Shown here: in pieces, positions 4,316 to 35,833 of the stretch | Numbering within the stretch: position 1 is the stretch's first letter | How the letters are laid out: each line of letters begins with the position of its first letter | NCBI GenBank assembly: GCA_946546945.1 | Contig: CAMNOU010000019.1 | Coordinates: 1 to 45,269, forward strand | Direction: 5' to 3' | Source of the DNA: an uncultured Lachnospiraceae bacterium | GTDB taxonomy: Bacteria > Bacillota > Clostridia > Lachnospirales > Lachnospiraceae | Length of the DNA stretch: 45,269 nt | Notes under the pieces: generated by a model | Database searches by the model: none | Seen by the model: only the letters and a program-made list of their open reading frames with translations | Told to the model about the DNA's origin: nothing | Program-made: the position numbers and the translations under genes

Positions 4316-4350
4316 AAAGAATGAATTTTTTAAGGGAGGAATACAAGCGA

Positions 4351-5913
4351 ATGGAAAGAGAAATGGTCATTGTCATAGATTTCGGCGGCCAGTACAATCA
4401 GCTGGTGGCGCGCCGTGTCCGGGAATGCAATGTGTACTGTGAGATTTATTCCTATAAGACCGATCTGGAGGCCATCCGGTCAATGAACCCAAAAGGAATC
4501 ATCCTGACAGGCGGCCCGAACAGCTGCTATGAGCCGGATGCCCCCACCTATACAAAAGAACTGTTTGAACTGGGTATTCCCGTGCTCGGACTGTGTTATG
4601 GCGCACAGCTCATGCAGCATATCCTTGGCGGCAGGGTGGAGCGTGCCGAAGTGCGCGAGTATGGAAAGACTGAGGTTTTTGTGGACACCGCCTCCAGACT
4701 GTTTTCAAATGTCAGCCCCAGTACGATCTGCTGGATGAGCCATTTCGATTACATTTCAAAAACAGCGCCGGGATTTACGATTACGGCCCATACGGCAGAC
4801 TGCCCGGCAGCGGCTTGTGAGAATGAATACAAACACCTTTATGCGATTCAGTTCCATCCGGAAGTCTTCCACACGAAGGAAGGGACAAAGATGATCAGGA
4901 ATTTTGTCCGTGACATCTGCGGCTGTGCCGGCGACTGGAAGATGGACTCTTTTGTTGAGCAATCCATCCGGGAAATCCGAAAAACGGTCGGGGACGGCAA
5001 GGTCATCTGCGGCCTTTCGGGAGGCGTTGATTCCTCTGTTGTGGCAGTTCTGCTCTCCAAGGCAATCGGCAGCCAGCTTACCTGTGTTTTTGTAGACCAT
5101 GGTCTGCTGCGGAAAGATGAGGGAGACGCGGTGGAAGCTGTTTTTGGGGAAAAGGGCAATTATGATCTGAATTTTGTCCGTGTCAACGCAAAGGACCGCT
5201 TCTATGTCAAGCTGGCCGGCGTGACGGAACCGGAAGAAAAGAGAAATATCATCGGAAAAGAATTTGCCGCGGTCTTTCGTGATAAATTCCATGAACTCTA
5301 TCCTTCAAATGAAAAAAATGCACCGGTCGACTTCCTCGCACAGGGTACGATCTACCCGGACGTTGTAGAGAGCGGTCTCGGCGGAGAATCCGGCAAGATC
5401 AAATCTCATCACAATACGATTCTGGTGCAGGGAGAGGACTATAACCATCTCGTGGAGCCGCTTCGCTATCTGTTCAAGGACGAAGTGCGAAAGGTCGGGC
5501 TGGAACTTGGGCTTCCCGAAGAACTCGTCATGCGCCAGCCGTTCCCGGGACCTGGACTCGGCATCCGTATTGTTGGGGATGTGACCGAAGAGAAAGTCCG
5601 CATCGTGCAGGAAGCGGATGCAATCTACCGGAGCGTTATTGCAGAGGCCGGATTGAGCCGTGAGATCAATCAGTACTTTGCTGCCCTCACCAACATGCGT
5701 TCCGTCGGTGTCATGGGCGACGAGAGAACCTATGACTACGCAGTCGTGCTGCGCGCAGTAAAGACCGTGGATTTTATGACGGCAGAAAGTGCGGATATCC
5801 CCTTTGAAGTACTGCAGACAGTGATGAGCAGGATCATCAATGAAGTCAAGGGAGTCAACCGGGTATTCTATGACCTGACCAGCAAACCGCCTGGAACCAT
5901 TGAATTTGAATAA
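4351..5913 (+). CDS. guaA: GMP synthase (glutamine-hydrolysing), full length
   Basis: A 520-residue GMP synthase that converts XMP, ATP and glutamine to GMP. The N-terminal class I glutaminase carries the nucleophile motif [10 protein letters not shown] and the His-Glu pair in QFHPEVFHT. The central ATP pyrophosphatase domain has the P-loop [13 protein letters not shown], and the C-terminal dimerisation domain ends [18 protein letters not shown]. Length and domain order are normal for bacterial GuaA. The start at 4351 is chosen because AGGGAGGA lies ten bases upstream and homologs start close to the [13 protein letters not shown] segment. The window holds a second, glutaminase-less copy at 21.9 kb. 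This one appears to be the complete housekeeping enzyme. Confidence 0.96.
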
Positions 5914-21945: not shown

Positions 21946-22935
21946 ATGGAAGATATCAGAAGACCTGACGGCATGGAGCGGATCACGACTCCGGAACTGG
22001 CAGACGCATTTATCGCAGAGCAGATCAAAGCTCTTCAGGCGCAGGTGGGAGAAAGAAAAGTGCTCCTTGCCCTTTCCGGAGGAGTAGACTCTTCCGTAGT
22101 GGCAGCACTTTTAATCAAAGCAATCGGCAAACAGCTGGTATGCGTCCATGTAAATCATGGTCTGCTGCGCAAAGGGGAACCGGAGCAGGTAATCGAAGTG
22201 TTCCGGAATCAGATGGATGCCAATCTGATCTATGTTGATGCGACAGACCGTTTCCTCGACCTGCTGGCAGGCGTCAGCGATCCGGAGGAAAAACGCCACA
22301 TCATCGGCGAAGAATTCATCAATGTATTTGCAGACGAGGCGAGAAAACTGGAAGGCGTTGATTTCCTGGCACAGGGTACCATCTGGCCGGATATCCTGGA
22401 GAGCGAGAATGGAATCAAAGCTCACCACAATGCAGGAGGACTGCCTGAGGACATCGCAGATCGTTTCGAGCTGGTAGAGCCGGTCCGTATCCTGTTCAAG
22501 GACGAAGTCCGTATGGTCGGAAAACAGCTGGGACTTCCGGAAAACATGGTAGAGCGGCAGCCGTTCCCGGGTCCGGGCCTTGGCGTACGCTGCCCCGGTG
22601 CAATTACCAGAGAGCGTCTGGAAGCAGTCCGTGAATCGGATGCCATCCTCCGTGAAGAATTCGCAAAGAACGGTCTGGAGGGCAAAGTATGGCAGTATTT
22701 CACCGTTGTTCCGGATTTCAAATCCACCGGAATCAAAGACGGAAAAAGAACCTTTGACTGGCCCTGCATCATCCGTGCCATCAACACGACCGATGTCATG
22801 GAAGTAACTGCAGAGCATCTGCCGGCAGAACTGATCGATCATCTCGTAAAGAGAATCACCACAGAAGTGCCCGGCATCAACCGCGTTCTTTATGATTACA
22901 CACCGAAGCCGCCCGCAACGGTCGAGTACGAATAA
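21946..22935 (+). CDS. guaA: GMP synthase ATP-pyrophosphatase subunit without glutaminase domain
   Basis: A 329-residue protein that covers only the synthetase half of GuaA. It has the P-loop [16 protein letters not shown] (about residues 41-56), the XMP-binding region [15 protein letters not shown], and the C-terminal dimerisation domain ending NRVLYDYTPKPPATVEYE. The class I glutaminase domain that normally precedes it is absent. The upstream gene is an unrelated XRE regulator, so this is not a frameshifted GuaA. It may use ammonia directly, or a separate GATase as in archaeal GuaAa/GuaAb. Its last codons form the integration site of the mobile element. A complete guaA lies at 4.4 kb. Confidence 0.93.
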   Translation: MEDIRRPDGMERITTPELADAFIAEQIKALQAQVGERKVLLALSGGVDSSVVAALLIKAIGKQLVCVHVNHGLLRKGEPEQVIEVFRNQMDANLIYVDATDRFLDLLAGVSDPEEKRHIIGEEFINVFADEARKLEGVDFLAQGTIWPDILESENGIKAHHNAGGLPEDIADRFELVEPVRILFKDEVRMVGKQLGLPENMVERQPFPGPGLGVRCPGAITRERLEAVRESDAILREEFAKNGLEGKVWQYFTVVPDFKSTGIKDGKRTFDWPCIIRAINTTDVMEVTAEHLPAELIDHLVKRITTEVPGINRVLYDYTPKPPATVEYE

Positions 22936-24061: not shown

Positions 24062-24277
24062 ATGACAGAAAGAATGTTTATGAAAGCAGATGAGGTTGCT
24101 GAGGTTTTAGAGGTGTCGAAACCATATGCTTACAAGCTGATCCGGCAGATGAACAAGGAACTGAGAGCAAAAGGGTGTCTGGTGATTGCCGGGAGAGTGG
24201 ACCGCAGATATTTTTACGACAATTTCTATGGAGACAGAACGGACGGGCGAAAGGAGGGGGCAAATGCCGGCGTATAA
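24062..24277 (+). CDS. excisionase (MerR-type/HTH_17 small protein)
   Basis: A 71-residue protein with a winged-helix DNA-binding pattern: KADEVAEVLEVSKPYAYKLIRQMN (HTH, about residues 8-31, shown in pieces as KADEVAEVLEVS and KPYAYKLIRQMN), then the wing GRVDRRYFYDNFYG. It is the usual partner of tyrosine integrases in Clostridia elements, directing excision by bending the arm sites. It starts at ATG 24,062 after an AAAAGGA site and overlaps the integrase start by 14 bp. The name follows position and size. It may also regulate the operon. Confidence 0.8.
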   Translation: MTERMFMKADEVAEVLEVSKPYAYKLIRQMNKELRAKGCLVIAGRVDRRYFYDNFYGDRTDGRKEGANAGV

Positions 24278-25415
24278 AGATAAAAACGGAACCTGGTATG
24301 CGATGGTTCGGTATACGGACTGGCGTGGGGAAAAGAAGCAGAAATGCCAAAGGGGTTTTGAAACCAAAAGGGATGCTCTGGCTTGGGAAACGCAGTTCAA
24401 ACTGCAGAAACGGGCAGATATTGACATGACGCTGGAAAGCTTTTATGAGCTTTACAGGGAGGATATCAAGCCCAGGCTGAAAGAAAACACCTGGATTACA
24501 AAGGAAAGCATTATCGAAGGAAAAATTCTCCCCTATCTGGGCAAACGCAGGCTTTCCGAGATCACGGCCAAAGACATCGTTGATTGGCAGAATACTGTAA
24601 TGCAGCTGCCGGGGACTGGCGGGAAGCCGTTGTCTTCTACCTTTATGAAATCGATTCATGCACAGCTCTCTGCCATGTTTAACCATGCCATCCGTTATTA
24701 TCAGCTGCCGGTCAATCCGGCCCGTATCGCAGGCAGCATTGGCAAAGAGGAATTCAAGGAAATGAAATTCTGGACGAAGGAAGAGTATTTGAAATTCGCT
24801 GAGGTCATAATGGAGAAACCCATCTATTATTATGCTTTTGAGGTACTCTACTGGACTGGCATTCGAGAGGGCGAGCTGCTGGCTTTGACACCGGAGGACT
24901 TTGATTTCGATAAAAAAATGCTTCGGATCAACAAATCATATCAGAGGCTTCGAGGCAAAGATGTTATCACAACTCCGAAAACGGATGCCGGTGTGCGAAT
25001 GATTGCGATTCCGGATTTCCTCTGTGAGGAAATGAAGGATTGCCTGAAGCTGTACTATGACATTCATTCTTCGGACCGGATCTTTCCTATGACGAAATAC
25101 GGACTTTGCCGGAACATGGAATCCGGAAGCAAGGCTGCCGGTGTCAGGAGGATCCGCATTCATGATCTTCGTCATTCCCATGTATCTCTTCTGATCAATC
25201 AGGGCTTCAGCGCTTTTGAGATTGGAAAGAGAGTCGGACATAGCAGCGAAAAGGTCACCTACCGCTATGCACATCTGTTTCCGAATAAGCAGGCGGACAT
25301 GGCAGAATTTCTGGAAAACCAGCGATTGCCGGAAACCGAAAACAGACAAAGCAACTCTTTGAACCATGATAAACGCGCAAACGGAGGAGAAGGAGGAAAA
25401 AAGAATGTCAGCTAA
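24264..25415 (+). CDS. int: tyrosine recombinase/integrase
   Basis: A 383-residue site-specific recombinase. The N-terminal arm-binding domain (AP2-like, residues 1-50: YKDKNGTWYAMVRYTDWRG) is followed by a core-binding SAM-like domain (about 55-155) and the catalytic domain (about 168-350). All catalytic residues are visible: R201 (TGIREGELL), K239 (TPKTDAG), H300 and R303 (HDLRHSH), H326 (VGHSS) and the nucleophile Y335 (TYRYAHL). The start at 24,264 follows AAGGAGGGGG. It should recombine the 15-bp core at the guaA 3' end. The gene overlaps its neighbours on both sides, consistent with one operon. Confidence 0.95.
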   Translation: MPAYKDKNGTWYAMVRYTDWRGEKKQKCQRGFETKRDALAWETQFKLQKRADIDMTLESFYELYREDIKPRLKENTWITKESIIEGKILPYLGKRRLSEITAKDIVDWQNTVMQLPGTGGKPLSSTFMKSIHAQLSAMFNHAIRYYQLPVNPARIAGSIGKEEFKEMKFWTKEEYLKFAEVIMEKPIYYYAFEVLYWTGIREGELLALTPEDFDFDKKMLRINKSYQRLRGKDVITTPKTDAGVRMIAIPDFLCEEMKDCLKLYYDIHSSDRIFPMTKYGLCRNMESGSKAAGVRRIRIHDLRHSHVSLLINQGFSAFEIGKRVGHSSEKVTYRYAHLFPNKQADMAEFLENQRLPETENRQSNSLNHDKRANGGEGGKKNVS

Positions 25416-25737
25416 AAATATGGACAGGCAGGGAAGATGGAGGTCAGTCACGGTAGCTTTTCGGGTATCTCCTGAAGAAGATATGCTCATCGAATCAGCG
25501 GTGAGAGTGTCCGGATTAACCAAACAGGATTATATAATCCGGAAGCTCACGGACCGGGAGGTGGTAGTTCAAGGGAATCCGAAGGTTTATAGGGGACTCT
25601 TGCTGGAAATGCGGGCGATATTGGATGAACTGAGGAGAATCCTTGAGGGGCAGACGGTAAATGAAGATCTTTTAACCCGAATCGATCTCATCACTTCTGT
25701 CATGATCGGGATGCAAAAGGAAGATGGTAGCTTATGA
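25405..25737 (+). CDS. MobC-like relaxosome/RHH protein
   Basis: A 110-residue protein with a ribbon-helix-helix start (SVTVAFRVSPEEDMLIESAV) followed by SGLTKQDYIIRKLTDREVVV, a pattern shared by plasmid mobilisation accessory proteins. The C-terminal half is helical (LLLEMRAILDELRRILEG). It would bind near oriT or an operator as a dimer. The start at 25,405 has AAGGAGGAAAA upstream and overlaps the integrase end by 11 bp. A second, larger MobC-like gene lies at 27.1 kb, so the two may have different sites. One could instead control replication. Confidence 0.65.
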   Translation: MSAKNMDRQGRWRSVTVAFRVSPEEDMLIESAVRVSGLTKQDYIIRKLTDREVVVQGNPKVYRGLLLEMRAILDELRRILEGQTVNEDLLTRIDLITSVMIGMQKEDGSL

Positions 25738-25753
25738 GAAAGGGAAAATGCGT

Positions 25754-26986
25754 ATGGATCAGAAAAGAATAACGACTGCTCTGAACCCGGCTGTTGGCGC
25801 AGCCGCAGAGCAATCGTCATTAAACATGTATGCTCAAAGTATAGCGAATCCGTCTCCGGAAATCAATGAAAACACAAGTGATTATATAGGTTTTTGCACT
25901 GATAATTCAATATCCGGTAAGACTGAGGACAAGGTAGAAACCGACTGGTATGACGATCCGGATCAGGAATTCACTTTACGGATCATAAGGAGAACAGCGG
26001 ATCCTTCTTATCTCCCGACCATCAGCATGACGCAGCTGTATGATCAGGTATACTGTGCCAAACCGCCTCTGATCGAAAACCTGCTCTATCCGGGCACCTA
26101 TCTATTCGTAGGGGCCCCGAAGCTGGGCAAGAGCTTCCTGATGCTGCAGATCGCCTACCATGTGGCAGCGGGGCTTCCTCTGTGGGAGTACCCCGTCAGA
26201 CAGAGCTCGGTCCTGTATCTGGCACTAGAGGACGATCCCAGGCGACTCCAGGAACGTCTGTATCGCATGTTCGGGACGGAATGTACCGACAGGCTTCATA
26301 TGGCTACGAGAGCTGATTCCCTGGATGGGAGCCTCTTAGGGCAAATGCGGAGATTTCTGTCAGAGCACCCGGATACCGGGGTGATCATAATCGATACGTT
26401 GCAGAAGATCCGGGCAAATGCCGATGAACGGTACAGCTATGCCAATGACTATGATGTGATCGTGAAGCTCAAGGATTTTGCAGATCAGGCCGGCATTTGC
26501 CTGCTCCTTGTACACCATACGAGAAAGCAGCAGGCCGACGATAAGTTTGAGATGATCTCAGGGACAAATGGCCTGCTCGGTGCGTCGGACGGCGCATTCC
26601 TGCTGCATAAGGAGAAGCGCACCAGCTGTGAGGCAGTGCTCGATGTCTCCGGCAGGGATCAGGCAGACCAGAGCCTGCACCTGAACCGGAACCCTGAAAC
26701 GCTTCTGTGGGAGCTTGAGACAGCGGATATGCAGGTGCTCTCCGTGAGACCGGAGCCGCTTCTGGAAACCGTTGCTGAACTGGTATCCGTTGAGAATCCA
26801 AACTGGACCGGGACGGCGACGGAGCTTGCGGAGGTACTTCACACGGAGCTATCGCCTAACAAACTGACTATGAAGCTGGGGATCAATGCCTCAAGGCTGT
26901 TTCATGAATACGGCATCACTTTCGAAAAAACACGGACTCGGGCCAACCGACAGATCACACTCCATCGCGATGTGGCAGGGGCGTGA
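25754..26986 (+). CDS. RepA-like AAA ATPase (RecA/DnaB-type helicase fold)
   Basis: A 410-residue protein. After a variable N-terminal region of about 85 residues, it shows a Walker A motif GAPKLGKSF near residue 120, the conserved SVLYLALEDDPRRLQERL, and a Walker B strand GVIIIDTLQKIRA. A sensor-like LLVHHTRK and a C-terminal winged-helix-like segment (NPNWTGTATELAEVL) follow. This is the hexameric RepA/RSF1010-type ATPase fold, common in mobilizable elements that replicate their circular form. Three candidate starts exist; 25,754 is chosen because GAGAAAGGG lies about nine bases upstream. Its stop codon lies inside the first iteron of the inverted repeat that follows. Confidence 0.8.
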   Translation: MDQKRITTALNPAVGAAAEQSSLNMYAQSIANPSPEINENTSDYIGFCTDNSISGKTEDKVETDWYDDPDQEFTLRIIRRTADPSYLPTISMTQLYDQVYCAKPPLIENLLYPGTYLFVGAPKLGKSFLMLQIAYHVAAGLPLWEYPVRQSSVLYLALEDDPRRLQERLYRMFGTECTDRLHMATRADSLDGSLLGQMRRFLSEHPDTGVIIIDTLQKIRANADERYSYANDYDVIVKLKDFADQAGICLLLVHHTRKQQADDKFEMISGTNGLLGASDGAFLLHKEKRTSCEAVLDVSGRDQADQSLHLNRNPETLLWELETADMQVLSVRPEPLLETVAELVSVENPNWTGTATELAEVLHTELSPNKLTMKLGINASRLFHEYGITFEKTRTRANRQITLHRDVAGA

Positions 26987-27093: not shown

Positions 27094-27444
27094 ATGAGCA
27101 TTACGAGAACGAAACAATTTCTCCTGAAATTGACAGATCATGAACACGAAATGATACAGCAGAAAATGCAGCAGTGCGGCACCCGTAACATGAGCGCATA
27201 TATCCGCAAGATGGCGATCGATGGCCTCGTGGTAAATCTAGATATGCCCGCCTTCCGGGAAATGCTGAAGCTTGCGAACCGGACTGCCGCGAATGTGAAC
27301 CAGATTGCGATTAGATGCAACATAGTCGGCGGCATATCCAGGGAGGATCTTACAGAACTGCAGGAGGGTTACCGGGAGCAAGCGGAACAGATCAAGAAGT
27401 TGGTTTCAGAAGTGATCACCCTGAAATCCATCAGGAGGGTATGA
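27094..27444 (+). CDS. mobC: MobC-family mobilisation protein
   Basis: A 116-residue relaxosome protein. The N-terminal RHH-like segment runs ITRTKQFLLKLTDHEHEMI, and the MobC core has MSAYIRKMAIDG and LANRTAANVNQIAIRCN, the typical 'N.NQIA...N' signature. The C-terminus is a coiled helix (LQEGYREQAEQIKKLVSEV). MobC proteins melt or bend oriT DNA and help the relaxase nick. The gene follows the iteron repeat and precedes the relaxase gene by a single base, which fixes its role as relaxase partner. Confidence 0.9.
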   Translation: MSITRTKQFLLKLTDHEHEMIQQKMQQCGTRNMSAYIRKMAIDGLVVNLDMPAFREMLKLANRTAANVNQIAIRCNIVGGISREDLTELQEGYREQAEQIKKLVSEVITLKSIRRV

Positions 27445-27445
27445 C

Positions 27446-28801
27446 ATGGCGACAACAAGGATTATGCCGATGCATATGAATCACGGAAAAACGCTTTTGC
27501 AATCTCTTGCCGCAAGGACGGATTATGTGATGAATCCGGATAAGACGGACGGCGGAGTCCTGATCAGTTCCTATGAATGCGATCCTACGTCCGTCGAGGT
27601 GGACTTCCTGCTCTCTAAGCAGCAATATCAGATGATTACCGGACGTCAGCCAAAACACGGAAAAGATGTAATCGCCTATCATGTGCGTCAGGCTTTCTAT
27701 CCAGGAGAGATCACGCCGAAGGAAGCCAATCGGATTGGCTACGAACTTGCTATGCAATTCACTGGCGGCAGGCACCAGTTTATTGTGGCGACGCATATCG
27801 ACAAGGCCCACGTCCATAATCACATCGTGTTCAACTCCACCACCCTTGACTGCACCCATAAGTTCAATAATGTTAAGGATACCGCGGATCTGATCCGGGA
27901 CATCAGTGACCGGATCTGTCTGGAAAAAGGATATTCTGTCATTGCTGAACCGGAAGAAAAAGGCAAGGACTATGCCGAGTGGAATGCGGAAAAAAACGGC
28001 ACCAGCTGGAAGGCAAAGCTTAAGAAAACAATCGGGAAAGTGCTGCCGGGCTGTTGTGACTTTGAAGATTTCCTTCGGCAGATGCAAGAACAAGGATATG
28101 AGGTTAAGCGCGGGAAGTATATTTCCCTTCGGGCGCCAGGACAGAATCGTTTCACGAGGCTGAAGACACTGGGGCCGGAATATACCGATGATGCGATCGG
28201 TGCTGAATTGGAACGACTGAGAACTTCAAATAGCAGATCCACAGTTGCAGCGCCCAGCAGAAAATTCGAAAAAAGTTCGACGCCGGATATCTCGTTTCTT
28301 ATCGATATCGAAAAGAAACTTTCAGAAGGAAAAGGCAAAGGCTATGAACAGTGGGCAAAGGTCTTTAACATCAAACAGATGGCAAGCGCACTGCTTATTC
28401 TTCGGGAGGAAGGCATTGGAAGTACAGAGCAACTGGAGGAGCGGCAGGTGAAAGCAACAGCTGTGTTTGAGCAGGCATCGGATGAATTGAAGGCGACGGA
28501 GAGTGAGATTCGGGAACTTCGAAAAATGAAACAGCATATCCTTGACTATGGAAGGACCAGAGAGGTTTTTGCCGAATATCAAAAGCGTGGTAAACCAGAT
28601 GATTATCTGGAGATGCACCGTGCAGAGATCCAGATCCATCTTGCTGCCAAGAAAGTCTTTGAAGAATATAAGACAAAAAGAATTCCGAAGCTCAAGGATT
28701 TGAATGCCAGGTTGTTGGTATTGTCCAATCAACAAAAAGCAAAGTATGAAAAGTACCGGGAAGCAAGAAAAGAGATGCAAAGGTGGCAGGCTGTTCAGTA
28801 A
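27446..28801 (+). CDS. MOB-P type relaxase (MobA/VirD2 family)
   Basis: A 451-residue relaxase that nicks oriT and pilots the strand in conjugation. The likely catalytic tyrosine is Y27 (ARTDYVMNPDKT). The metal-binding histidine motif is HIDKAHVHNHIVFNS, with H117, H122, H124 and H126 (HxHxH type). The C-terminal third (about 330-450) is a charged coiled region (ESEIRELRKMKQHILDY). Length and layout match relaxases of Clostridia mobilizable elements. No coupling protein or secretion channel follows, so transfer depends on another conjugative element. Confidence 0.93.
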   Translation: MATTRIMPMHMNHGKTLLQSLAARTDYVMNPDKTDGGVLISSYECDPTSVEVDFLLSKQQYQMITGRQPKHGKDVIAYHVRQAFYPGEITPKEANRIGYELAMQFTGGRHQFIVATHIDKAHVHNHIVFNSTTLDCTHKFNNVKDTADLIRDISDRICLEKGYSVIAEPEEKGKDYAEWNAEKNGTSWKAKLKKTIGKVLPGCCDFEDFLRQMQEQGYEVKRGKYISLRAPGQNRFTRLKTLGPEYTDDAIGAELERLRTSNSRSTVAAPSRKFEKSSTPDISFLIDIEKKLSEGKGKGYEQWAKVFNIKQMASALLILREEGIGSTEQLEERQVKATAVFEQASDELKATESEIRELRKMKQHILDYGRTREVFAEYQKRGKPDDYLEMHRAEIQIHLAAKKVFEEYKTKRIPKLKDLNARLLVLSNQQKAKYEKYREARKEMQRWQAVQ

Positions 28802-29097
28802 AGTGTACACAGTTCTCTGAATCAATTGGAAAAAGAAAAGCATCGAGGCGGCAGCCGATGATGGAGCAGCATATCTGCTCGCGGGGTTTGGGGCAGACCC
28901 CAGCAAGCGGAAAAGATATATACTTTTCCATTGCTTGCTGCTGCAGCAGTAAGGCCCGGTCTAAAGGAAAAGTTATGAACCAGTTAGTGCAAAAGGTTAT
29001 TATAAAAAGATAAGACCTGCCAATAATTGCAGAAATTACTCATGATTGCCTGGACGTGGCGTGATATTCTCGGAGCAAAAAGAAAGGAGGATGCGTC
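28802..29097 (+). promoter_or_regulatory. non-coding stretch upstream of the RiPP operon
   Basis: No convincing gene is seen. GGAAAAG and CTTTTCC (near 28,909-28,930) form a perfect 7-bp stem, and a GC-rich GGGGTTTGGGGCAGACCCC segment precedes it. No good sigma-A promoter is evident: TATTCT at 29,065-29,070 could be a -10, but without a matching -35. This would fit a promoter that needs the response regulator encoded at the end of the operon. Confidence 0.35.
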
Positions 29098-29223
29098 ATG
29101 AACCCTAGTGCAACGCCTATGGGCAATGGCTGTAAGCTGTGTGCTGGATGCACCGGTTGTATGTTTTGCGGACCGAGTGCTATCGCAGCAGCAACAGCAG
29201 CTGGATTTGTAGGACTCTTCTAG
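29098..29223 (+). CDS. sactipeptide-type RiPP precursor peptide
   Basis: A 41-residue peptide, preceded by a perfect AGAAAGGAGG site, in front of a radical SAM maturase. It opens MNPSATPMGNG and then has five cysteines at 12, 15, 18, 21 and 24, each separated by exactly two residues. A hydrophobic, Ala/Gly-rich tail follows (GPSAIAAATAAGFVGLF). This mirrors thurincin H: a very short leader, a CX2CX2CX2C donor half, and an acceptor half that folds back to receive thioether bonds at alpha-carbons. Small residues S27, A30, T33, G36 and G39 keep the same three-residue rhythm. The product is probably an exported antimicrobial or signal; that is inference. Confidence 0.85.
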   Translation: MNPSATPMGNGCKLCAGCTGCMFCGPSAIAAATAAGFVGLF

Positions 29224-29234
29224 AGCCCTAAAAG

Positions 29235-29279
29235 AGCCTGGAAGGAGACAATTGCTTTAATTTATTCTCCTGTCAGGCT
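29235..29279 (+). promoter_or_regulatory. hairpin between precursor and maturase genes (attenuator)
   Basis: AGCCTG (29,235-29,240) and AGGAGA (29,243-29,248) pair with TCTCCT (29,266-29,271) and CAGGCT (29,274-29,279), leaving a 2x2 internal loop. Only a short T-run follows. Such hairpins often limit readthrough so that precursor mRNA exceeds maturase mRNA. Confidence 0.6.
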
Positions 29280-29303
29280 TTAATATATGATGGAGGATAA
29301 AAA

Positions 29304-30665
29304 ATGTTTCTAAGAATGTTGAATGTAAAGGCAATAGAAAGACAAAAAGAATCCTACATACTTGTAATCGATAACAAATATGAAAAAATGGGAGAGAGTC
29401 TGTACTGGATTAATGAAGATGCTTTTAACATTATTAAGCACATGGACGGTACTCGCACTTTTGATGATCTTATACCGGTGATGACTGGAGGAAATGACCA
29501 TTTACGTGAAGAGGCAACCGAAAACCTGGAAAAATTCATCAATAAATTAAGGGATGAATATGGCATAAGAATTATCGAAACCAAAGTAGCTCAGAAAATA
29601 GAAATCCCTATATTGGGAAATGGGAAAACTCAATATCCGTCAGCGATTTCAGTTGAGATTACACACAGGTGTAATGCAAGATGTCTTCATTGCTACGGAG
29701 ATTATTCAGCAGACAAACAATTTACTGATAATACAGAAGGAATAATTACCCTTTTAAAAGATGCCAGGGCTGCGGGAACAAGGGTCGTTGAGTTTACAGG
29801 AGGAGAAGCAACCTGCCATCCTAAATTTGGCGAGATTTTAACAGAAGCGTATAATCTTGGCTACAATCTTATCAGCATACTTTCAAACGGGTTGGCATGG
29901 AGTAATGAAATTTTTAACATTGTTGTAGAAAATGCTCCCAGAACAGTGGTCCAAATAGATTTGCATGGAGACAATGACCAATATGTAAACTGGTTTATGG
30001 GAACCTCTATTCCAAACATAACACAAAGAGTTAAAACGAACATTTTAAACCTGCATAAAGCCGGTGTCTTTTTAAGAGTTGTGACAATGGTAACCCCAAA
30101 CAACATAAATCAGATAGAAAACATCGCCGATTGGGTTCATTCAAATGATATCGAGAAATACGGTATTTCCGTCATTACACCAATGGGACGAGCCGACCTG
30201 GAAGATAGCAATAATTTGTTGCTAAAAACGGAAAGAGATGCAGAGGGTATTGCAAAAGTTATTAACAGAATTAATGACAAATACGGGAGAGGCTTTCTGT
30301 ATGAGGTAAAAGATGGTGATTCCAAGTTAAATAACTGCGGCGCTTTTACATCAAACCCTTCTATAACACCAGATGGAAATATCAAATTCTGTGCGATGGA
30401 TGATGAGACGATACTAAAACCAGTAGGTAATGTGTTTAAGAAGAATATCGGAGAATTATATACTGAAGAGTATGAGCTTCTAAATCTTGTGCGATCAATA
30501 AAGGCACCTGTATACAACAGCGAAGAATGCAAAGACTGTGATAAGAAGTATTTCTGTAGCTATTGCATTATTAGAGGACTTTATTCTGCAAGAGAAAAAG
30601 AATTTAGAGACTGCCAGTGGTATAAAAACAAAATACCAGATAGCTTCAGGGGGTATATATTATGA
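29304..30665 (+). CDS. radical SAM/SPASM peptide maturase (sactisynthase-like)
   Basis: A 453-residue enzyme. Residues about 15-92 form a PqqD-like peptide-recognition domain (SYILVIDNKYEKMGESLYW...). The radical SAM core holds CX3CX2C at C123, C127 and C130 (HRCNARCLHC) and the SAM-binding FTGGEAT. The C-terminal SPASM domain has seven cysteines (345, 363, 409, 412, 418, 421, 437), enough for two auxiliary [4Fe-4S] clusters. This three-part build is that of AlbA/ThnB-type enzymes, which link Cys sulfur to alpha-carbons in sactipeptides. The start follows GGAGG. It overlaps the ABC gene by 4 bp (ATGA). Other thioether or C-C chemistry cannot be excluded. Confidence 0.92.
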   Translation: MFLRMLNVKAIERQKESYILVIDNKYEKMGESLYWINEDAFNIIKHMDGTRTFDDLIPVMTGGNDHLREEATENLEKFINKLRDEYGIRIIETKVAQKIEIPILGNGKTQYPSAISVEITHRCNARCLHCYGDYSADKQFTDNTEGIITLLKDARAAGTRVVEFTGGEATCHPKFGEILTEAYNLGYNLISILSNGLAWSNEIFNIVVENAPRTVVQIDLHGDNDQYVNWFMGTSIPNITQRVKTNILNLHKAGVFLRVVTMVTPNNINQIENIADWVHSNDIEKYGISVITPMGRADLEDSNNLLLKTERDAEGIAKVINRINDKYGRGFLYEVKDGDSKLNNCGAFTSNPSITPDGNIKFCAMDDETILKPVGNVFKKNIGELYTEEYELLNLVRSIKAPVYNSEECKDCDKKYFCSYCIIRGLYSAREKEFRDCQWYKNKIPDSFRGYIL

Positions 30666-31333
30666 CAACAAACGATTATGCCATTAGAATTTATAATGTG
30701 TCAAAATCATTTGATTCACACAAATTATTTGATGATTTAAGCCTAAATATAAGAAGTAATACAATACATGCAATCATCGGACCAAATGGATCCGGGAAAA
30801 CCTCCTTGCTTCGCATCCTAACAGGGCTTTATGAAGTAGACAGCGGGAAAATAGAGGTTAAAGGAAATCACTGCATGCTTCTTGAAAATGACTATTTATA
30901 TGAAGATAAGTCAGGAATGGAAAATTTAAAAATATTTGGTTTATATTTTGGGTTTGATGCAAGCAAATATGAAAAATATGCGAATATGCTTGGCTTGACA
31001 GATCATTTATCAAAACGAGTAAGCACTTATTCAAAGGGAATGAAGCGAAAACTGTCCCTTTTGATAGTGGTTTTGATGGACAGAGATATTATGCTTTTTG
31101 ATGAACCGACATCAGGAGTAGATCCAATATCCAGAATTGAGATAAGAACTATTATTGAAAGGATGCGCGATGAACACAAAACAGTGTTGATAACGTCACA
31201 TGATTTGTCAGAGATAGAGAAAACTGCTGATTATGTCACCATGATAAAAGACGGAACGCTGTTATTTGAGAAAAGCATGAATGAAGTCCAAAAAGGGACA
31301 CTTGAAGAACTTTTTGTAAAGGCGGGGAGTTAA
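30662..31333 (+). CDS. ABC transporter ATP-binding protein of the RiPP operon
   Basis: A 223-residue ATPase. Walker A is GPNGSGKT (residues 40-47), the signature is the degenerate YSKGMKR (about 123-129), Walker B is IMLFDE (143-148), and the switch His is H180 (LITSHDL). The degenerate signature is typical of drug and bacteriocin export or immunity ABC proteins. It is translationally coupled to the maturase and followed by two membrane subunits, a layout like thnD/E/T of thurincin H. It probably powers peptide export or self-protection. No peptidase domain is fused, so leader removal needs a host protease. Confidence 0.92.
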   Translation: MTTNDYAIRIYNVSKSFDSHKLFDDLSLNIRSNTIHAIIGPNGSGKTSLLRILTGLYEVDSGKIEVKGNHCMLLENDYLYEDKSGMENLKIFGLYFGFDASKYEKYANMLGLTDHLSKRVSTYSKGMKRKLSLLIVVLMDRDIMLFDEPTSGVDPISRIEIRTIIERMRDEHKTVLITSHDLSEIEKTADYVTMIKDGTLLFEKSMNEVQKGTLEELFVKAGS

Positions 31334-31337
31334 TAAT

Positions 31338-32051
31338 ATGGATAGAAATATAAGGAAAGCCTCGTTTTATTATTTGTTAAAAAGCAAAGATACTGCAATT
31401 AATTTTTTTGTAGTTCTGATTATTTCACTGCTTGTATTGTTCGTTATGAAAAAAGGATTGCTTGAAGCCAGAGGTATAAACTATGTTCTGTTGATTATAT
31501 ATGTATTGGTTTTGGCAACAACTCTAATACAGGCCAACTCAATGATAGTTGATTTGACAGTAAAAGACATCCTCAGTAATCGAGTACAGTTTTTTTTATC
31601 ATGTGGTATTGACTATCATAAACTATTAACCGCTTATTCCATGCAGATTTTTGTTCTTTCAAGTATTGTCCCGTTACTTTTGTTTTTGTCGGTATGTTTT
31701 TATGTGCTAACACCTGCGCCTAAGTTAATAATGCAATTAATAGTTGTATATATATCTACGGCGATTTTAGGATTCATAACAATACTCGCGATTAATATTG
31801 CGTCATTCAGCATAAAAAAATACAAATTGTTCAAAAACATATTATTCTTTGGGTGCTTCTTTTTTATTTATGCCATTGCCATGTTTGCAGAAGACATTGC
31901 CGCGATCGCTAATAGGGTAGGAGTTGAGATATGGCTACCTATAACTGTCATAAATATAATTTTAGCAATAGTTCTGTTAGTTTTATTTTCTCAGAAAAAG
32001 CGGGCCCTTTCTAATGAAAAGATTGTAACAGGGGGCGGAAAATGGGAATAA
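31338..32051 (+). CDS. ABC exporter membrane subunit 1 of the RiPP operon
   Basis: A 237-residue membrane protein with about six hydrophobic segments (for example FFVVLIISLLVLFVMKKG and MQIFVLSSIVPLLLFLSVCF) and no recognised enzymatic motif. It starts 5 bp after the ATPase gene and overlaps the next membrane gene by 10 bp. It fits an ABC-2-type permease half that works with the adjacent ATPase and the second membrane subunit. The DNA here is visibly more AT-rich than the host region to the left, like the rest of the cargo operon. Confidence 0.75.
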   Translation: MDRNIRKASFYYLLKSKDTAINFFVVLIISLLVLFVMKKGLLEARGINYVLLIIYVLVLATTLIQANSMIVDLTVKDILSNRVQFFLSCGIDYHKLLTAYSMQIFVLSSIVPLLLFLSVCFYVLTPAPKLIMQLIVVYISTAILGFITILAINIASFSIKKYKLFKNILFFGCFFFIYAIAMFAEDIAAIANRVGVEIWLPITVINIILAIVLLVLFSQKKRALSNEKIVTGGGKWE

Positions 32052-32689
32052 ATAGCATAAAGATTCATCTGCGACAAATGATAACTACAAACTATTTTTT
32101 TATGATGGCAATATCTCTGGTTTTTTCCATGTTGGGAGTATGGGGGAAGGAGGCGTCTTTAGATATGAGTGCTACTCAAATGAAAGAGATGCTTTCAATG
32201 GGGTATGTTTTCCCTCTTATTATCTTCAGCGCGGAGCTAAGCAAAGATAGTATACAGATTGATAAAATTACCCGAAAGATAGAGTGGCTTCTGTCTAATG
32301 GATTAAGCGCATTATCTCTTTGTTTTGACTATTCCGTTGCTACTTGGATTGCAACCTCCTTGTTGACGCTCCCCATGATCGTTGTCACTCATGTAATGAT
32401 ATTAAATATGTCTCCTTTAAATCTTTTGGATTATTATTTATATGGGTTAATATTCAATGCCATTCTTAGCGTCAGGGTATTAAACATAAAAAACATGAAC
32501 AAATATAAAAGCCTGGGACTTCATCTGGCATTCCTTCATATCGCTGCTGTTTTAATAGAAGTAGCCTTATCACACACACTAAATATGATGATTGCGGGAG
32601 TTATGGGCAGATACATTTTTGCCCTGTCTGTATTTATAGTAATGGCGAGAACATTATCTAACGAGAAAATAGCAGGATCTTATTACTAA
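32042..32689 (+). CDS. ABC exporter membrane subunit 2 of the RiPP operon
   Basis: A 215-residue membrane protein with about six hydrophobic segments, beginning with NYFFMMAISLVFSMLGVWG. Its start lies inside the end of the previous gene, behind a GGGGGCGG site, which points to coupled translation. No family is recognised beyond an ABC-2-like membrane subunit. Together with the previous gene it would form a heterodimeric channel for export of the modified peptide, or for immunity against it. Confidence 0.72.
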   Translation: MGINSIKIHLRQMITTNYFFMMAISLVFSMLGVWGKEASLDMSATQMKEMLSMGYVFPLIIFSAELSKDSIQIDKITRKIEWLLSNGLSALSLCFDYSVATWIATSLLTLPMIVVTHVMILNMSPLNLLDYYLYGLIFNAILSVRVLNIKNMNKYKSLGLHLAFLHIAAVLIEVALSHTLNMMIAGVMGRYIFALSVFIVMARTLSNEKIAGSYY

Positions 32690-32712
32690 AACACAGAAAT
32701 GGTCTATAAATC

Positions 32713-34002
32713 ATGAAGAAAAGATATGGATATACTTACCTTGGTGTTTATGTTTTTTCGATTCTCTTTTGGATGTGGGTATGTTCAAAGGGTTATGTCC
32801 GAACAGATTCACTGTTGATTAATTTCTGCTCAATAGCACTCTTTTTTATATTCCTAAATGCTGTTTATATTCAGCTGATAAAATGTAACAAAGAGAGATC
32901 GTTTTTGGATCTTTGGCAGATTCCCTTGATAATATGGCTTAGCTCTCTGGTCATTGACAATGTTCCTCTAATGGTAAACATGAGTGTTGTGATTTTCGTC
33001 ACGGTACTTCTTGTTCACCATTTTGTTTCTAAAGGAAAGAAAGTATCTAAACTGAGCATTTTTGCATTGTATATAGCAAGTGTGACAAGCTTGCGCATAA
33101 GCTATTTTTCAATTCCTCTAATCGTATTGGCTATAGTTATAGATACAAACAACAAATACTCATATTCCGATTTTGAAAGAGTTAATATACTTCCTGTGTC
33201 AAAAAAAGCTCAGAAAATTGCCGTGCCTCTGACCGTATTATTATTAGTGGTTATCTGTTATGGCTTGGGAATGGGTACTATAGAAATTAATATTTTTCTA
33301 CATTACATGGGATGCATATATATATTAATGCTACTAATTAACCTGGAAGAGCCTGTTGGTGAGTTTGATGAAATGAAGGCATTTTACTATCTGGCATCCT
33401 ATATTGAAGACGAAAGAGATGCTTTTTCAAGAGTTTTACACGACGAAATCATACAAGAAGCAAGGGCCAGTTACAATCTTCTTTTATTAAAAGAACCAGA
33501 AATTGATGGAGCAAGAAATATTATTGGAGATATGGAAAAAAGAGCTCGAAGTTTAATGAACTTCTATTCATCTAGTCTGTTTAATGAATTTGACATGGCA
33601 GATAATATTGAAAACCTTACAAGCTCTATAAGTCTTTTATATCCGAAAAGTAGAATCAAAACTGTTGTCAATGTTTCAAAAGAGGCACAAATAATGCTCG
33701 AGAATGAGAGTGTTTCTCGACTGGTGTTCCAAATCAGCAAAGAGCTGATCAACAATGTGTATAAGCACTCTCGTTCCAGCTTCTTACACTATGATATAGA
33801 GTTAAAGGATGAGAATACTATTAAAATAAAGTGTATAAGCGATGGAGCAACATTTGAAGATTACGAAAAAACAAAAAGTTCAAAAGGCGGTGTTCTGATG
33901 CTTCGGCTATTAATAAAAAGAAACAATGGCACGATGGAATATGGATATTCGAACGGTGTTTTAAGCAGCGATGTCGAAATAAAGGCGGGGGAATCTACAT
34001 GA
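32713..34002 (+). CDS. sensor histidine kinase (HPK7/NarX-like)
   Basis: A 429-residue kinase. The N-terminal half has about six membrane segments (residues 8-210) with little extracytoplasmic sequence, as in peptide or membrane-stress sensors. The phosphoacceptor is H243 in SRVLHDEIIQEA, the HisKA_3-type H-box. The HATPase domain has its N-box at ISKELINNVYKHSR (about 341-354), a degenerate D-box ISDGA, and a G-box SKGGVLML. It overlaps the response regulator by 4 bp. As the fifth cotranscribed gene of the RiPP operon it may sense the mature peptide and drive autoinduction, or sense damage; this is inference. Confidence 0.9.
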   Translation: MKKRYGYTYLGVYVFSILFWMWVCSKGYVRTDSLLINFCSIALFFIFLNAVYIQLIKCNKERSFLDLWQIPLIIWLSSLVIDNVPLMVNMSVVIFVTVLLVHHFVSKGKKVSKLSIFALYIASVTSLRISYFSIPLIVLAIVIDTNNKYSYSDFERVNILPVSKKAQKIAVPLTVLLLVVICYGLGMGTIEINIFLHYMGCIYILMLLINLEEPVGEFDEMKAFYYLASYIEDERDAFSRVLHDEIIQEARASYNLLLLKEPEIDGARNIIGDMEKRARSLMNFYSSSLFNEFDMADNIENLTSSISLLYPKSRIKTVVNVSKEAQIMLENESVSRLVFQISKELINNVYKHSRSSFLHYDIELKDENTIKIKCISDGATFEDYEKTKSSKGGVLMLRLLIKRNNGTMEYGYSNGVLSSDVEIKAGEST

Positions 34003-34604
34003 ACATTATCCTGTATGATGATCATATTCTATTTGGAGAAAGCTTAAAAAGACTTATAACCGAAAATGATCAATCGATCAAACGATTTGACTATGTATCA
34101 AGTGAAGATCGGTTTTTTCAAATGCTTCGACGCTTCACGTATGTTGTGGCTTTATTAGATATTAACCTAAAAAGCTCACAAGGAATAACAGGGTTTGATT
34201 TAATTCAAAAAATAAAAAAGGAAAGCCCGCCTACAGCAGTTATAATGCTTTCCTCTTATGATATGCCCCTTTACAAAGCAAAGGCTTTTGAAAAAGGAGC
34301 CGTTGATTATCTTAACAAATCATCTACCCCGGAATGTCTCATAAAAAGAATACATGATGCTGTAACAAAAGAAACAAAGGAACACGAAAGAAAACATGAA
34401 GGGTGTCTGACACATAAGGAAATAGAAGTATTAAGAGAGGTGTGTAAAGGCAAAACGAAGAAGGAAGTGGCCAAGGTATTGTTCATGAGCGAACGGACTT
34501 TATATAATCACCTTCAAAGCATATATGACAAATTAAGCGCTGAAAACACGCTTGATGCTTATAATAAAGCTATAAAATTAGGATATATTGATCCATTAGT
34601 ATAA
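33999..34604 (+). CDS. NarL/LuxR-type response regulator
   Basis: A 201-residue regulator. The receiver domain (1-120) has the acidic pair D7/D8 (YDDH), the phosphoacceptor D54 (ALLDINL) and the conserved Lys in YLNKSST. The C-terminal LuxR HTH (about 137-195) reads LTHKEIEVLREVCKGKTKKEVAKVL and SERTLYNHLQSIYDKL (given as two landmarks). It pairs with the preceding kinase by start-stop overlap and probably activates the RiPP promoter upstream of 29.1 kb, which has no good sigma-A match of its own. Confidence 0.92.
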   Translation: MNIILYDDHILFGESLKRLITENDQSIKRFDYVSSEDRFFQMLRRFTYVVALLDINLKSSQGITGFDLIQKIKKESPPTAVIMLSSYDMPLYKAKAFEKGAVDYLNKSSTPECLIKRIHDAVTKETKEHERKHEGCLTHKEIEVLREVCKGKTKKEVAKVLFMSERTLYNHLQSIYDKLSAENTLDAYNKAIKLGYIDPLV

Positions 34605-34789
34605 GAAAAAGAATAACGTATTAAGGGGTTTTCATAAAAAAATACATGAAAAACTGGTTTACCAACGACATCAGCCATTTATGATGGCATATCTGATTGT
34701 AAACTGAAGTAAGAAAAGGTATATATGATTAGGTTCAAAGAAAACGTTAGTTTTGTGTTACAGACAAGAAGTTAGATATATCTAACTAG

Positions 34790-35128
34790 ATGCTAACAAC
34801 TCTGGTTCTTTCGTTTGTTGGGACACTCATGTTTACAGTGGGTTTATACGCAGGGAAACCGCTTTCCATTACATGTGCAACTGCGCTGGCGCTGTCTTTT
34901 TTTCTCGTTATTAATTTGACGGCGCAGGTTCGGCAGAAGCTCGCCTACTTTATCCCGACTGTTTGGCCGGAGGTGGCAAGGATAGCGACACCAGATTACG
35001 GGTATTATTGGTTGCCATCGATTCCATACATGTTGACATTCCTTCTGGCTGGGATACTTGCTATGAGCAGTATGATTTTATTAAAAATAGGGAAGGTCGA
35101 ATTTTTATGGGAAAATGAGGATATTTAG
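34790..35128 (+). pseudogene. ABC-2 permease, C-terminal remnant
   Basis: An open frame of 112 residues with four hydrophobic segments (LTTLVLSFVGTLMFTVGLYAG, ITCATALALSFFLVINL, and a last one near IPYMLTFLLAGILAMSSMILL). It ends KVEFLWENEDI, a common C-terminus of ABC-2 permeases. A stop codon (TAG) sits right before the ATG, and no N-terminal half is found upstream in 34,605-34,789, so the gene has lost its beginning. A broken ATPase gene follows, which supports a decayed transporter module. Confidence 0.6.
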
Positions 35129-35139
35129 GAGAGGGGTTT

Positions 35140-35833
35140 ATGAATCGAGAAAGAGAGTATACTATCAAAGTTGATTCGGTTTCCAAGTCTCTTAATGATA
35201 CTGTTGTTTTGAACAATGTGTCTGTGGAATTTAAGAGTGGTAACATTTACGGACTGATCGGACATAACGGATCTGGAAAAACTGTACTATTTAAAGCCAT
35301 TTGCGGATTCTTAAGATGTGACAAAGGGTCAATCCTAATTAACAATCAAGTCATGGGCAGGGATTTAAACATGTTGACGGATGCAGGCGTCATTATCGAG
35401 GAGCCTGCTTTTCTGCGCAACTGGAGAGGGTACCGTAATTTAGAATTTCTTTATAAAATAAGAAACAAAAAAAAACAAGCAGCATTTATTTTCAATCATC
35501 AGAAGGGTAGGTCTTGATCCAGAGTATAAGAAGCCTGTAGGAAAATATTCACTGGGAATGAGGCAACGATTGGCTATTGCGCAGGCTATTATGGAAGATC
35601 CGCCGATCTTAATTCTGGATGAACCGATGAACGGACTTGACAGAAAAGGTATTGCTGAAATGAGAGAATTGTTTTTGGAAATGAAGAACCAAGGGAAATT
35701 AATTCTTTTGGCAAGCCATAGCAAAGAAGATGTAGATATTCTATGCGATGAGACTTTTCACATGGAGAACGGAAATCTTATAAAAATGGACAACCTCATC
35801 GGTCAGCCGCTTGCGGAAATGCACCATGAGTGA
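35140..35833 (+). pseudogene. ABC transporter ATPase, frameshifted
   Basis: Two frames together make one ABC ATPase. The first (35,140-35,517) has Walker A IGHNGSGKT and the Q-loop region EEPAFLRNW. The second carries RRVGLDPEYKKPVGKYSLG followed by MRQRLAIAQAIMED (signature region), then Walker B ILILDEPMNGLD and the H-loop LASHSKED. The break most likely lies in a run of nine A residues near 35,466-35,474, since the second frame reads on sensibly from there. It is next to a truncated permease, so the module is probably inactive, unless slippage at the A-run restores the frame. Confidence 0.8.

Follow-up and report, generated by a model that had tools for sequence, protein, structure and literature searches.

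What kind of peptide is encoded by a 41-residue reading frame with five regularly spaced cysteines beside a radical SAM enzyme gene in an uncultured Lachnospiraceae bacterium, and what would that peptide do? The locus lies in a window of 45,269 nt (contig CAMNOU010000019.1 of assembly GCA_946546945.1, forward strand; the window denotes this whole stretch, and coordinates are window positions unless another locus is named). Seven tightly spaced forward-strand genes fill positions 29098-34604 exactly: a precursor, a maturase, three genes of an ATP-binding cassette (ABC) transporter and the two genes of a two-component system. We put the probability at roughly 80% that together they form an operon which is mobile, regulates itself and directs production of a sactipeptide bacteriocin of the thurincin H-like kind (hairpin, type I), and we file the operon as, in effect, a new subfamily of such sactipeptides.

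A five-cysteine precursor in a seven-gene operon

The precursor gene (29098-29223) encodes MNPSATPMGNGCKLCAGCTGCMFCGPSAIAAATAAGFVGLF, whose 41 residues place cysteines at positions 12, 15, 18, 21 and 24 in CX2C spacing, exactly as the first-pass annotation had read it; the Shine-Dalgarno sequence AAAGGAGG precedes it (29083-29090), and it is the single precursor gene in the region. A CX2C run of five was found in one of the 616 open reading frames (ORFs) of 20-200 aa in the window, and runs of three or four in none. Among the 54,216 ORFs of 60 windows simulated with a first-order Markov model, no run exceeded four, a length reached once. Chance was rejected as the origin of the run, as this control never reached five. 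The maturase gene (29304-30665; 453 aa) encodes a probable sactionine synthase with an RRE-like N-terminus, a radical SAM CX3CX2C motif and a SPASM region, assigned from profiles and a tree. A short cysteine-containing precursor thus adjoins a radical SAM/SPASM enzyme, the general arrangement of a sactipeptide operon.

The ABC ATPase (30662-31333) finds its best NCBIfam match, top of 205 families, in the lantibiotic-protection subfamily TIGR03740 at 160.3 bits, below the cut-off of 309.75. Permease subunits 1 (31338-32051; six hydrophobic segments) and 2 (32042-32689; four hydrophobic segments and a weak DUF2142 match below cut-off) were assigned from hydropathy and synteny in relatives. The membrane histidine kinase (32713-34002; NarL/DesK type, six hydrophobic segments) has no Pfam match and was recognised from an HDEIIQ H-box and an N-box, both read by eye, and from weak NCBIfam matches, with MctS, LiaS, UhpB and NarX among those listed. 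Its partner, a NarL/LuxR-type response regulator (33999-34604), matches Response_reg (7.8e-17) and GerE (3.5e-13) in Pfam. Because the gene spacing ranges from a 10-nt overlap to an 80-nt gap, the seven genes are likely one operon; this spacing and the synteny agree with the earlier proposal of a single unit of precursor, maturase, ABC exporter with two membrane subunits and two-component system. Precursors of this type, followed by genes in the same order, are also present in Anaerococcus prevotii plasmid pAPRE01 and in the genomes labelled G690, G1510, G1547 and G1635, for which reason both operon and precursor are taken to be real.

Conservation of the peptide and divergence of the operon

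Relatives were sought with the maturase in overlapping genome sets. At E ≤ 1e-20, 397 genomes of the family gave four matches, and 392 genomes of the order and 391 of the class gave six and five; 398 genomes of the phylum, searched with a four-row profile, gave three at 1e-40. The window's own genome is counted in each of these four sets. Two further searches covered 64 genomes of one genus (two matches at 1e-60) and 130 of another family (four at 1e-40), and some of all these matches lie outside the subfamily. The plasmid search with the maturase (50 records) was led by pAPRE01 at 58.7%, and the genome-contig search returned a single Tepidanaerobacter contig (63%), which probably duplicates the record of genome G1282.

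As a result, the intact seven-gene operon with a five-cysteine precursor was identified in six genomes of four genera, namely the window genome, G690, G1510, G1547, G1635 and A. prevotii (G1548, whose contig is identical to pAPRE01 over the 13,359 bases compared). Three further copies are damaged or cut: the Tepidanaerobacter contig starts inside the maturase gene, G319 has roughly 1 kb of inserted DNA, bearing transposase-like ORFs, after precursor codon 3 (locus L016, 9258-10385) and otherwise has the operon of G1510, and in G998 most of the maturase is gone.

Three versions of the peptide occur in the intact copies, one in the window, one in G690 and G1510, and one in A. prevotii, G1547 and G1635. 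Residues 8-27 (MGNGCKLCAGCTGCMFCGPS) are identical in all six, and the whole window precursor is 90% and 71% identical to the other two intact versions and 66% to the decayed C21F version of G998. Identity to the window in the remaining five intact copies is 59-64% for the maturase, 61-63% for the ATPase, 45-51% for the regulator, 35-40% for permease 1, 24-33% for permease 2 and 32-37% for the kinase (37% over 271 residues); the Tepidanaerobacter copy reaches 65% in the ATPase and 43% in permease 1. That the peptide hardly varies even as the other operon genes diverge suggests a fixed target. G690 and G1510 show zero differences in all seven genes, and G319 agrees with G1510 at 99.99% over the 8,242 bases up to the insertion. 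Since G319 belongs to another genus, this virtually identical operon indicates recent transfer.

In G998 the maturase is reduced to residues 318-449 and the precursor carries C21F, V6A and M8T, the peptides of its three intact relatives being identical to one another. Its five transporter and two-component ORFs are full-length, with dN/dS values against A. prevotii of 0.046-0.267, like those of intact pairs (pairwise Nei-Gojobori estimates, with no value for saturated pairs). Retention of these genes with such dN/dS values fits a self-protection role. The maturase remnant differs from G1547 by two synonymous and three non-synonymous changes in 89 codons, so the deletion may be recent, and the differing gene-to-gene divergence suggests recombination.

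Grouping of the maturase with enzymes beside thurincin-like precursors

The best NCBIfam match of the maturase is AlbA, which scores 96.9 bits along residues 36-443 and so falls far short of its 850-bit equivalog cut-off; general SPASM models come next, and SkfB (54.3), StsB (49.4) and PapB (39.9) follow. Pfam identified Radical_SAM (1.6e-15) and SPASM (1.5e-4), and a search of PDB sequences returned SkfB as the best hit. The AlbA, SkfB and StsB models match all nine maturases of our alignment. Seven cysteines lie in the SPASM region (345, 363, 409, 412, 418, 421 and 437), and seven are likewise found in that of AlbA (PMC5682303).

In a tree of 22 enzymes, the window group (six rows, support 100/100) is nested in an 11-row clade, again with 100/100. 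Four of the five other rows in this clade (L018, L019, L021 and L038) are each accompanied by a precursor whose CX2C run has four cysteines. The fifth comes from Paraclostridium (P. bifermentans); its enzyme is short of most C-terminal cysteines normally seen in the family, and no CX2C precursor lies near it. By this 11-row clade the maturase is placed with thurincin-type maturases, ThnB itself not being in the tree. Furthermore, the precursor of L021 matches PDB 2lbz (thurincin H/thuricin 17) as TCWSCLxCAAC with E 0.068. The AlbA match, the clade and this peptide match together favour the thurincin H-like sactipeptide class that had been proposed before any family search.

Two related loci may be recorded here. 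The Paraclostridium maturase is plasmid-borne (L007, 5332-7206) and follows an agr-like autoinducer gene. G410 carries another five-CX2C precursor with a sixth cysteine, METPKMNAAPICVGCMACGECIICGPTPSGTECAAVAVGLSAFYN (L020, 6061-6198), next to a maturase frame (L020, 6282-7607) whose matched stretch is interrupted by a stop at its codon 56, for which reason G410 was left out of the tree.

Candidate cross-link register

The five CX2C cysteines lie in the N-terminal half of the core and are followed by an acceptor-rich C-terminal arm, as expected of a thurincin H-like peptide. In thurincin H the linkages are 4-28, 7-25, 10-22 and 13-19 (PMC8172795, in the portion available to us, a limit that applies to the papers on published peptides cited below as well), which agrees with the separations of 6, 12, 18 and 24 that the first-pass annotation had quoted. 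We scored the tail for small or polar acceptors (A, G, S, T, N and C, a set of our own choice) in phases counted from the last cysteine. In the d=3 phase (positions 3, 6, 9, 12 and 15) the residues are S, A, T/G, G and G, which is five out of five in all three intact versions. Four of the five positions in this phase are invariant across the versions; the two remaining phases have one and three invariant positions out of five. In the G410 peptide d=3 and d=6 tie at four of five each, and L021 has no clear phase.

The acceptors are therefore probably in the register S27/A30/T33/G36/G39. Two ladders had been proposed for the peptide, and both fit this polar phase: counted from d=3, five links would have separations of 3, 9, 15, 21 and 27, and counted from d=6, four links would have the thurincin separations of 6, 12, 18 and 24 and leave C12 without a partner. 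The sequence does not choose between four and five. For the peptide without a 9-residue leader, the calculated monoisotopic [M+H]+ is 3012.34 when linear, 3004.27 with four links and 3002.26 with five. Our tentative preference is for five links, four links in the thurincin register with C12 free come next as a possible arrangement, and fewer or other links appear rather unlikely.

Layout of the promoter and candidate operator

The upstream regions of the three lineages are dissimilar save for TTGCAGnAnTTACTCATG, in which 16 of 18 columns are identical (maximum of 12 in 100 dinucleotide-shuffled sets). In the window this operator-like box reads TTGCAGAAATTACTCATG (29027-29044), two inverted heptamers in a 7-2-7 layout, and the site is the sole place in the window within three mismatches (expected 0.23), matching exactly. 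The box lies upstream of the precursor in all eight subfamily loci that hold one, and in every copy exactly 20 nt separate it from a -10-like hexamer, which is TATAAT in G690, G1510 and G319, TAAAAT in A. prevotii, G1547, G1635 and G998, and TATTCT behind TGA in the window (29065-29070).

NarL binds two inverted TACYYMT heptamers with a 2-bp spacing. The right heptamer of the box, TACTCAT, fits this consensus, and the left one, TACTGCA (TTCTGCA in the window), fits it in part. The box would occupy the -35 position, as expected for an activator site. A generic sigma-70 scan does not list the precursor promoter, which has no matching -35; this miss would fit an activator-dependent promoter and proves nothing. 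Because the box resembles a NarL operator and the regulator belongs to the NarL family, the peptide may induce its own operon. A second copy of the box in A. prevotii (L006, 11162-11179), downstream of the regulator gene and again 20 nt from a hexamer (TAGAAT), precedes a short ORF and an apparent decayed secreted-protein gene.

Between the precursor and maturase genes, an RNA hairpin is predicted at 29233-29280 (-21.6 kcal/mol, z -2.03; matched in stability by 8 of 200 shuffles). Hairpins also fold in the same gap in the other lineages, there without a shuffle control. The hairpin is perhaps a partial terminator or a stabiliser, and is consistent with a higher level of peptide mRNA than of enzyme mRNA.

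Mobile setting and neighbouring features

Upstream of the operon and on the same strand lie a tyrosine integrase gene (24186-25415; Phage_integrase 7.4e-17), an AAA ATPase gene (25724-26986; AAA_25 3.1e-27), whose product we label RepA-like by inference, a gene for a MobC/NikA-like mobilisation protein (27094-27444; NikA-like 7.4e-13, MobC 2.4e-06) and a MobA/VirD2-type relaxase gene (27446-28801; Relaxase 5.1e-32), which is separated from the precursor gene by 296 nt. MobC (37%) and relaxase (28-33%) homologues also lie upstream of the operon in G690, G1510 and G319, and in A. prevotii a relaxase remnant adjoins the operon on a plasmid typed as conjugative. These genes and the plasmid copy argue for the mobility that had been claimed for the operon. 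In the retrieved stretches of G1547, G1635, G998 and Tepidanaerobacter, none of the four mobility proteins encoded in the window (integrase, AAA, MobC and relaxase) had a homologue, and the mobile link is for this reason restricted to the window, G690, G1510, G319 and pAPRE01.

No empty integration site was defined when both flanks were searched in 20 genomes, the window genome and 19 others of its genus, since outside the own genome only short stretches at about 63-81% matched. Nor was a convincing att pair present among the best 20 of 32 direct-repeat families. The maturase search of viral contigs for phage cargo was empty. The maturase profile found four loci there, over residues 112-197 only and at 33-34%, and the exact operator pattern had no match in viral contigs. 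Phage records gave three matches, the best being a four-cysteine relative in MT836680. This record, named 'Bacteriophage sp.', holds a thurincin-like precursor and maturase (L038, 5833-7400) and is perhaps a bacterial or mobile-element contig.

Downstream of the operon, positions 34790-35128 hold a possible permease end without a family match, followed by an ABC ATPase split across two frames (35140-35517 and 35558-35833), both parts of which are closest or near closest to lantibiotic-protection ATPases; the stretch 34790-35833 reads as a broken second immunity-like transporter. Elsewhere in the window there are a full-length GMP synthase gene (4321-5913), a second one comprising the C-terminal synthase part only (21946-22935), about 1.25 kb before the integrase gene, and adjoining direct repeats (97 and 44 nt; identity 84-89%) that stand 3.6 kb apart at the contig end (41445-41581 and 45082-45216). 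Rfam and tRNA scans of the window gave no matches.

Comparison with published sactipeptides

The five-cysteine CX2C spacing is already published. Estercticin A of Clostridium estertheticum CF004 (ELNCWACLGCVGCAACVFTLALASAMSALTGSNR; Wambui 2022, PMC8792950), detected by high-resolution mass spectrometry (HRMS), has its five CX2C cysteines at core positions 4, 7, 10, 13 and 16, is encoded on a 180-kb plasmid, and was described as a sactipeptide 28.6% identical to thurincin H ('thuricin H' in that paper). The earlier statement that no five-cysteine peptide of this exact pattern had been described is contradicted by it. The arms of the two peptides differ (VFTLALASAMSALTGSNR in estercticin A, GPSAIAAATAAGFVGLF here), as do their polar phases (d=5 versus d=3/6), and the estercticin core had no match among plasmid records. 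What is new here is the conserved mobile subfamily with its shared promoter.

Thurincin H/thuricin 17 of Bacillus thuringiensis (PDB 2lbz) shares with the present system the CX2C array in the N-terminal half, a short leader (predicted here), a single radical SAM-SPASM maturase with an RRE (putative here) and a three-gene ABC transporter; it differs in having four cysteines, the acceptors N, T, T and S, three identical precursor genes, the protease gene thnP and the regulator ThnR (PMC8172795). A ThnP protease together with repeated precursor genes, the mark of a thn system, was not found here, where ten scanned proteins gave no convincing peptidase match and the region holds one precursor gene. 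Gnavucin D of Mediterraneibacter gnavus HB038 likewise comes from a gut Lachnospiraceae, is thurincin-like with a 9-residue leader, and is encoded in a cluster for which the available text identifies no leader peptidase (PMC13239113). In contrast to the present operon, its precursor genes are five in tandem and lie on the chromosome, its mass (-8 Da) indicates four links, and the available text names a response regulator and no kinase, which is present here (PMC13239113).

The family that the maturase matches best is that of AlbA, the enzyme of subtilosin A, at a score far below its cut-off and with seven SPASM cysteines in both. The donor cysteines of subtilosin A are Cys13, Cys7 and Cys4. 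Paired with these, the acceptors F22, T28 and F31 (PMC8172795 for the acceptors) give separations of 9, 21 and 27, which is the register of the five-link ladder considered here; subtilosin A differs in having three links and a head-to-tail cyclic backbone (PMC12300986, in part). Streptosactin, made by GggB, contains Cys-x-x-Ser and Cys-x-x-Gly i,i+3 sactionines, among them Cys25-Ser28, as C24-S27 would be; unlike the present system it has only two links, its rings are not nested, and its cluster includes a protease gene, with quorum-sensing regulators of another kind (PMC8172795). The Apre_1837/1838 cluster shares plasmid pAPRE01 with the A. prevotii copy and is a separate sactipeptide system, with a TrnC-like enzyme and a 65-aa peptide (PMC3132745, PMC4289311). 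In the available parts of these two papers (Murphy 2011, Letzel 2014) the 41-aa five-cysteine gene and its operon are not mentioned, and no five-cysteine CX2C peptide appears in those of PMC10731318, PMC12300986, PMC10931772 and PMC7738495. Three strings of the core had no match in the searchable literature, a body that excludes subscription papers and supplements.

Proposed mechanism and competing explanations

We propose that the RRE-like domain of the maturase would bind a leader of about nine residues, and that its radical SAM and SPASM centres would join the cysteine sulfurs to alpha-carbons of the C-terminal arm, which would come to lie antiparallel to the cysteine arm. A host protease would then remove the leader, and the ABC transporter would export the peptide, clear it from the producer's own membrane, or both. 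The membrane kinase would sense the peptide, and the NarL-type regulator, bound at the conserved box 20 nt ahead of the -10, would switch the operon on, with the hairpin after the precursor gene keeping peptide mRNA above enzyme mRNA.

A number of observations count against the thurincin H-like assignment or parts of it. The AlbA score falls well short of the equivalog level, many non-sactipeptide SPASM models likewise match all nine maturases, and an AlphaFold2 model of the maturase from two sequences was poor (mean predicted local distance difference test score 48.8). Of the first-pass label of a PqqD-radical SAM-SPASM enzyme, the PqqD part has a weak match in the window maturase (E 0.015), with seven of the nine aligned members matching at E up to 1 (best 9.2e-07). 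Like ThnB, AlbA, GanB and the estercticin enzyme are absent from the tree; G739 (L023) is not part of the 11-row clade although its precursor, too, has four cysteines in a CX2C run, and SkfB, Apre_1837 and others also fall outside, on long branches and with unsure placement. The window peptide found no thurincin match in the PDB, its best hits being chance matches to R-spondin (E 0.4), and a nine-precursor profile reached 2lbz at E 0.75 only, level with unrelated ribosomal chains. For L018, L019, L023, L038 and estercticin A the top-scoring phase is d=5 rather than 3 or 6, and for estercticin A three links, not five, were found by HRMS (PMC8792950); by our recomputation the formula published for it corresponds to the linear peptide less six hydrogens. 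Finally, the ten proteins of 29098-35833 include no convincing Pfam match to a leader peptidase and none among the NCBIfam matches listed (the best 25 for five of the ten), as had been noted from the sequence. The sole peptidase-type name, Pico_P2A, fell in the ATPase at chance level (E 0.21).

One rival reading is chemistry of another kind, with the cysteines linked to C-beta or C-gamma, as in ranthipeptides, or otherwise, or with the CX2C array binding a metal. CX2C arrays do resemble ferredoxin motifs, and the maturase matches 57 NCBIfam families at E up to 1 (the best 25 listed), many of them weakly matching SPASM families; but AlbA outscores the ranthipeptide enzyme PapB (PapB cut-off 340 bits), and the maturase groups with enzymes beside thurincin-like precursors. 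PapB-type chemistry in particular is unlikely because the 41 residues contain no Asp or Glu, the acceptors of such links. We judge links other than to alpha-carbons, or a metal site, improbable, and hardly less so a pheromone role, in which the peptide would mainly signal to the two-component system and the transporter would serve export only. All six intact operons do contain the kinase and regulator, and the regulator may act on the precursor promoter. An invariant peptide segment facing so divergent a kinase is nevertheless not what co-evolution of a signal with its receptor would lead one to expect, the ATPase is similar to those of lantibiotic protection, and the CX2C relatives thurincin H and gnavucin D are described as antibacterial (PMC8172795, PMC13239113).

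Within the bacteriocin explanation, the division of labour may differ from the scheme above: the transporter and two-component system could form an immunity module only, with the peptide exported by a host system. The ATPase's best match and the full-length downstream genes of G998, kept despite the loss of the maturase, both point this way. However, the G998 deletion may be too recent to be telling, recombination may have shaped the divergence among its genes, and the operon contains no other exporter; an immunity-only role is accordingly somewhat unlikely, with better odds than either reading of the preceding paragraph.

Implications

The operon adds what is probably a compact, mobile, self-regulated sactipeptide system from anaerobes, and its promoter motif could help to find and to induce such clusters. 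In its most specific form, the proposal would have five nested alpha-thioethers (C24-S27, C21-A30, C18-T33, C15-G36 and C12-G39) in a peptide invariant over residues 8-27, mobile among several anaerobe genera and controlled by one peptide-induced promoter; taken whole, this is doubtful. If true, the five-link ladder would join an innermost ring of streptosactin size to a hairpin in the subtilosin register, and we know of no earlier peptide with five nested alpha-thioethers. The question of link number has been live since estercticin A, for which three links were reported for five cysteines (PMC8792950), and the five-cysteine substrate described here would provide a clean system for learning how one SPASM enzyme sets both the number and the register of its links.

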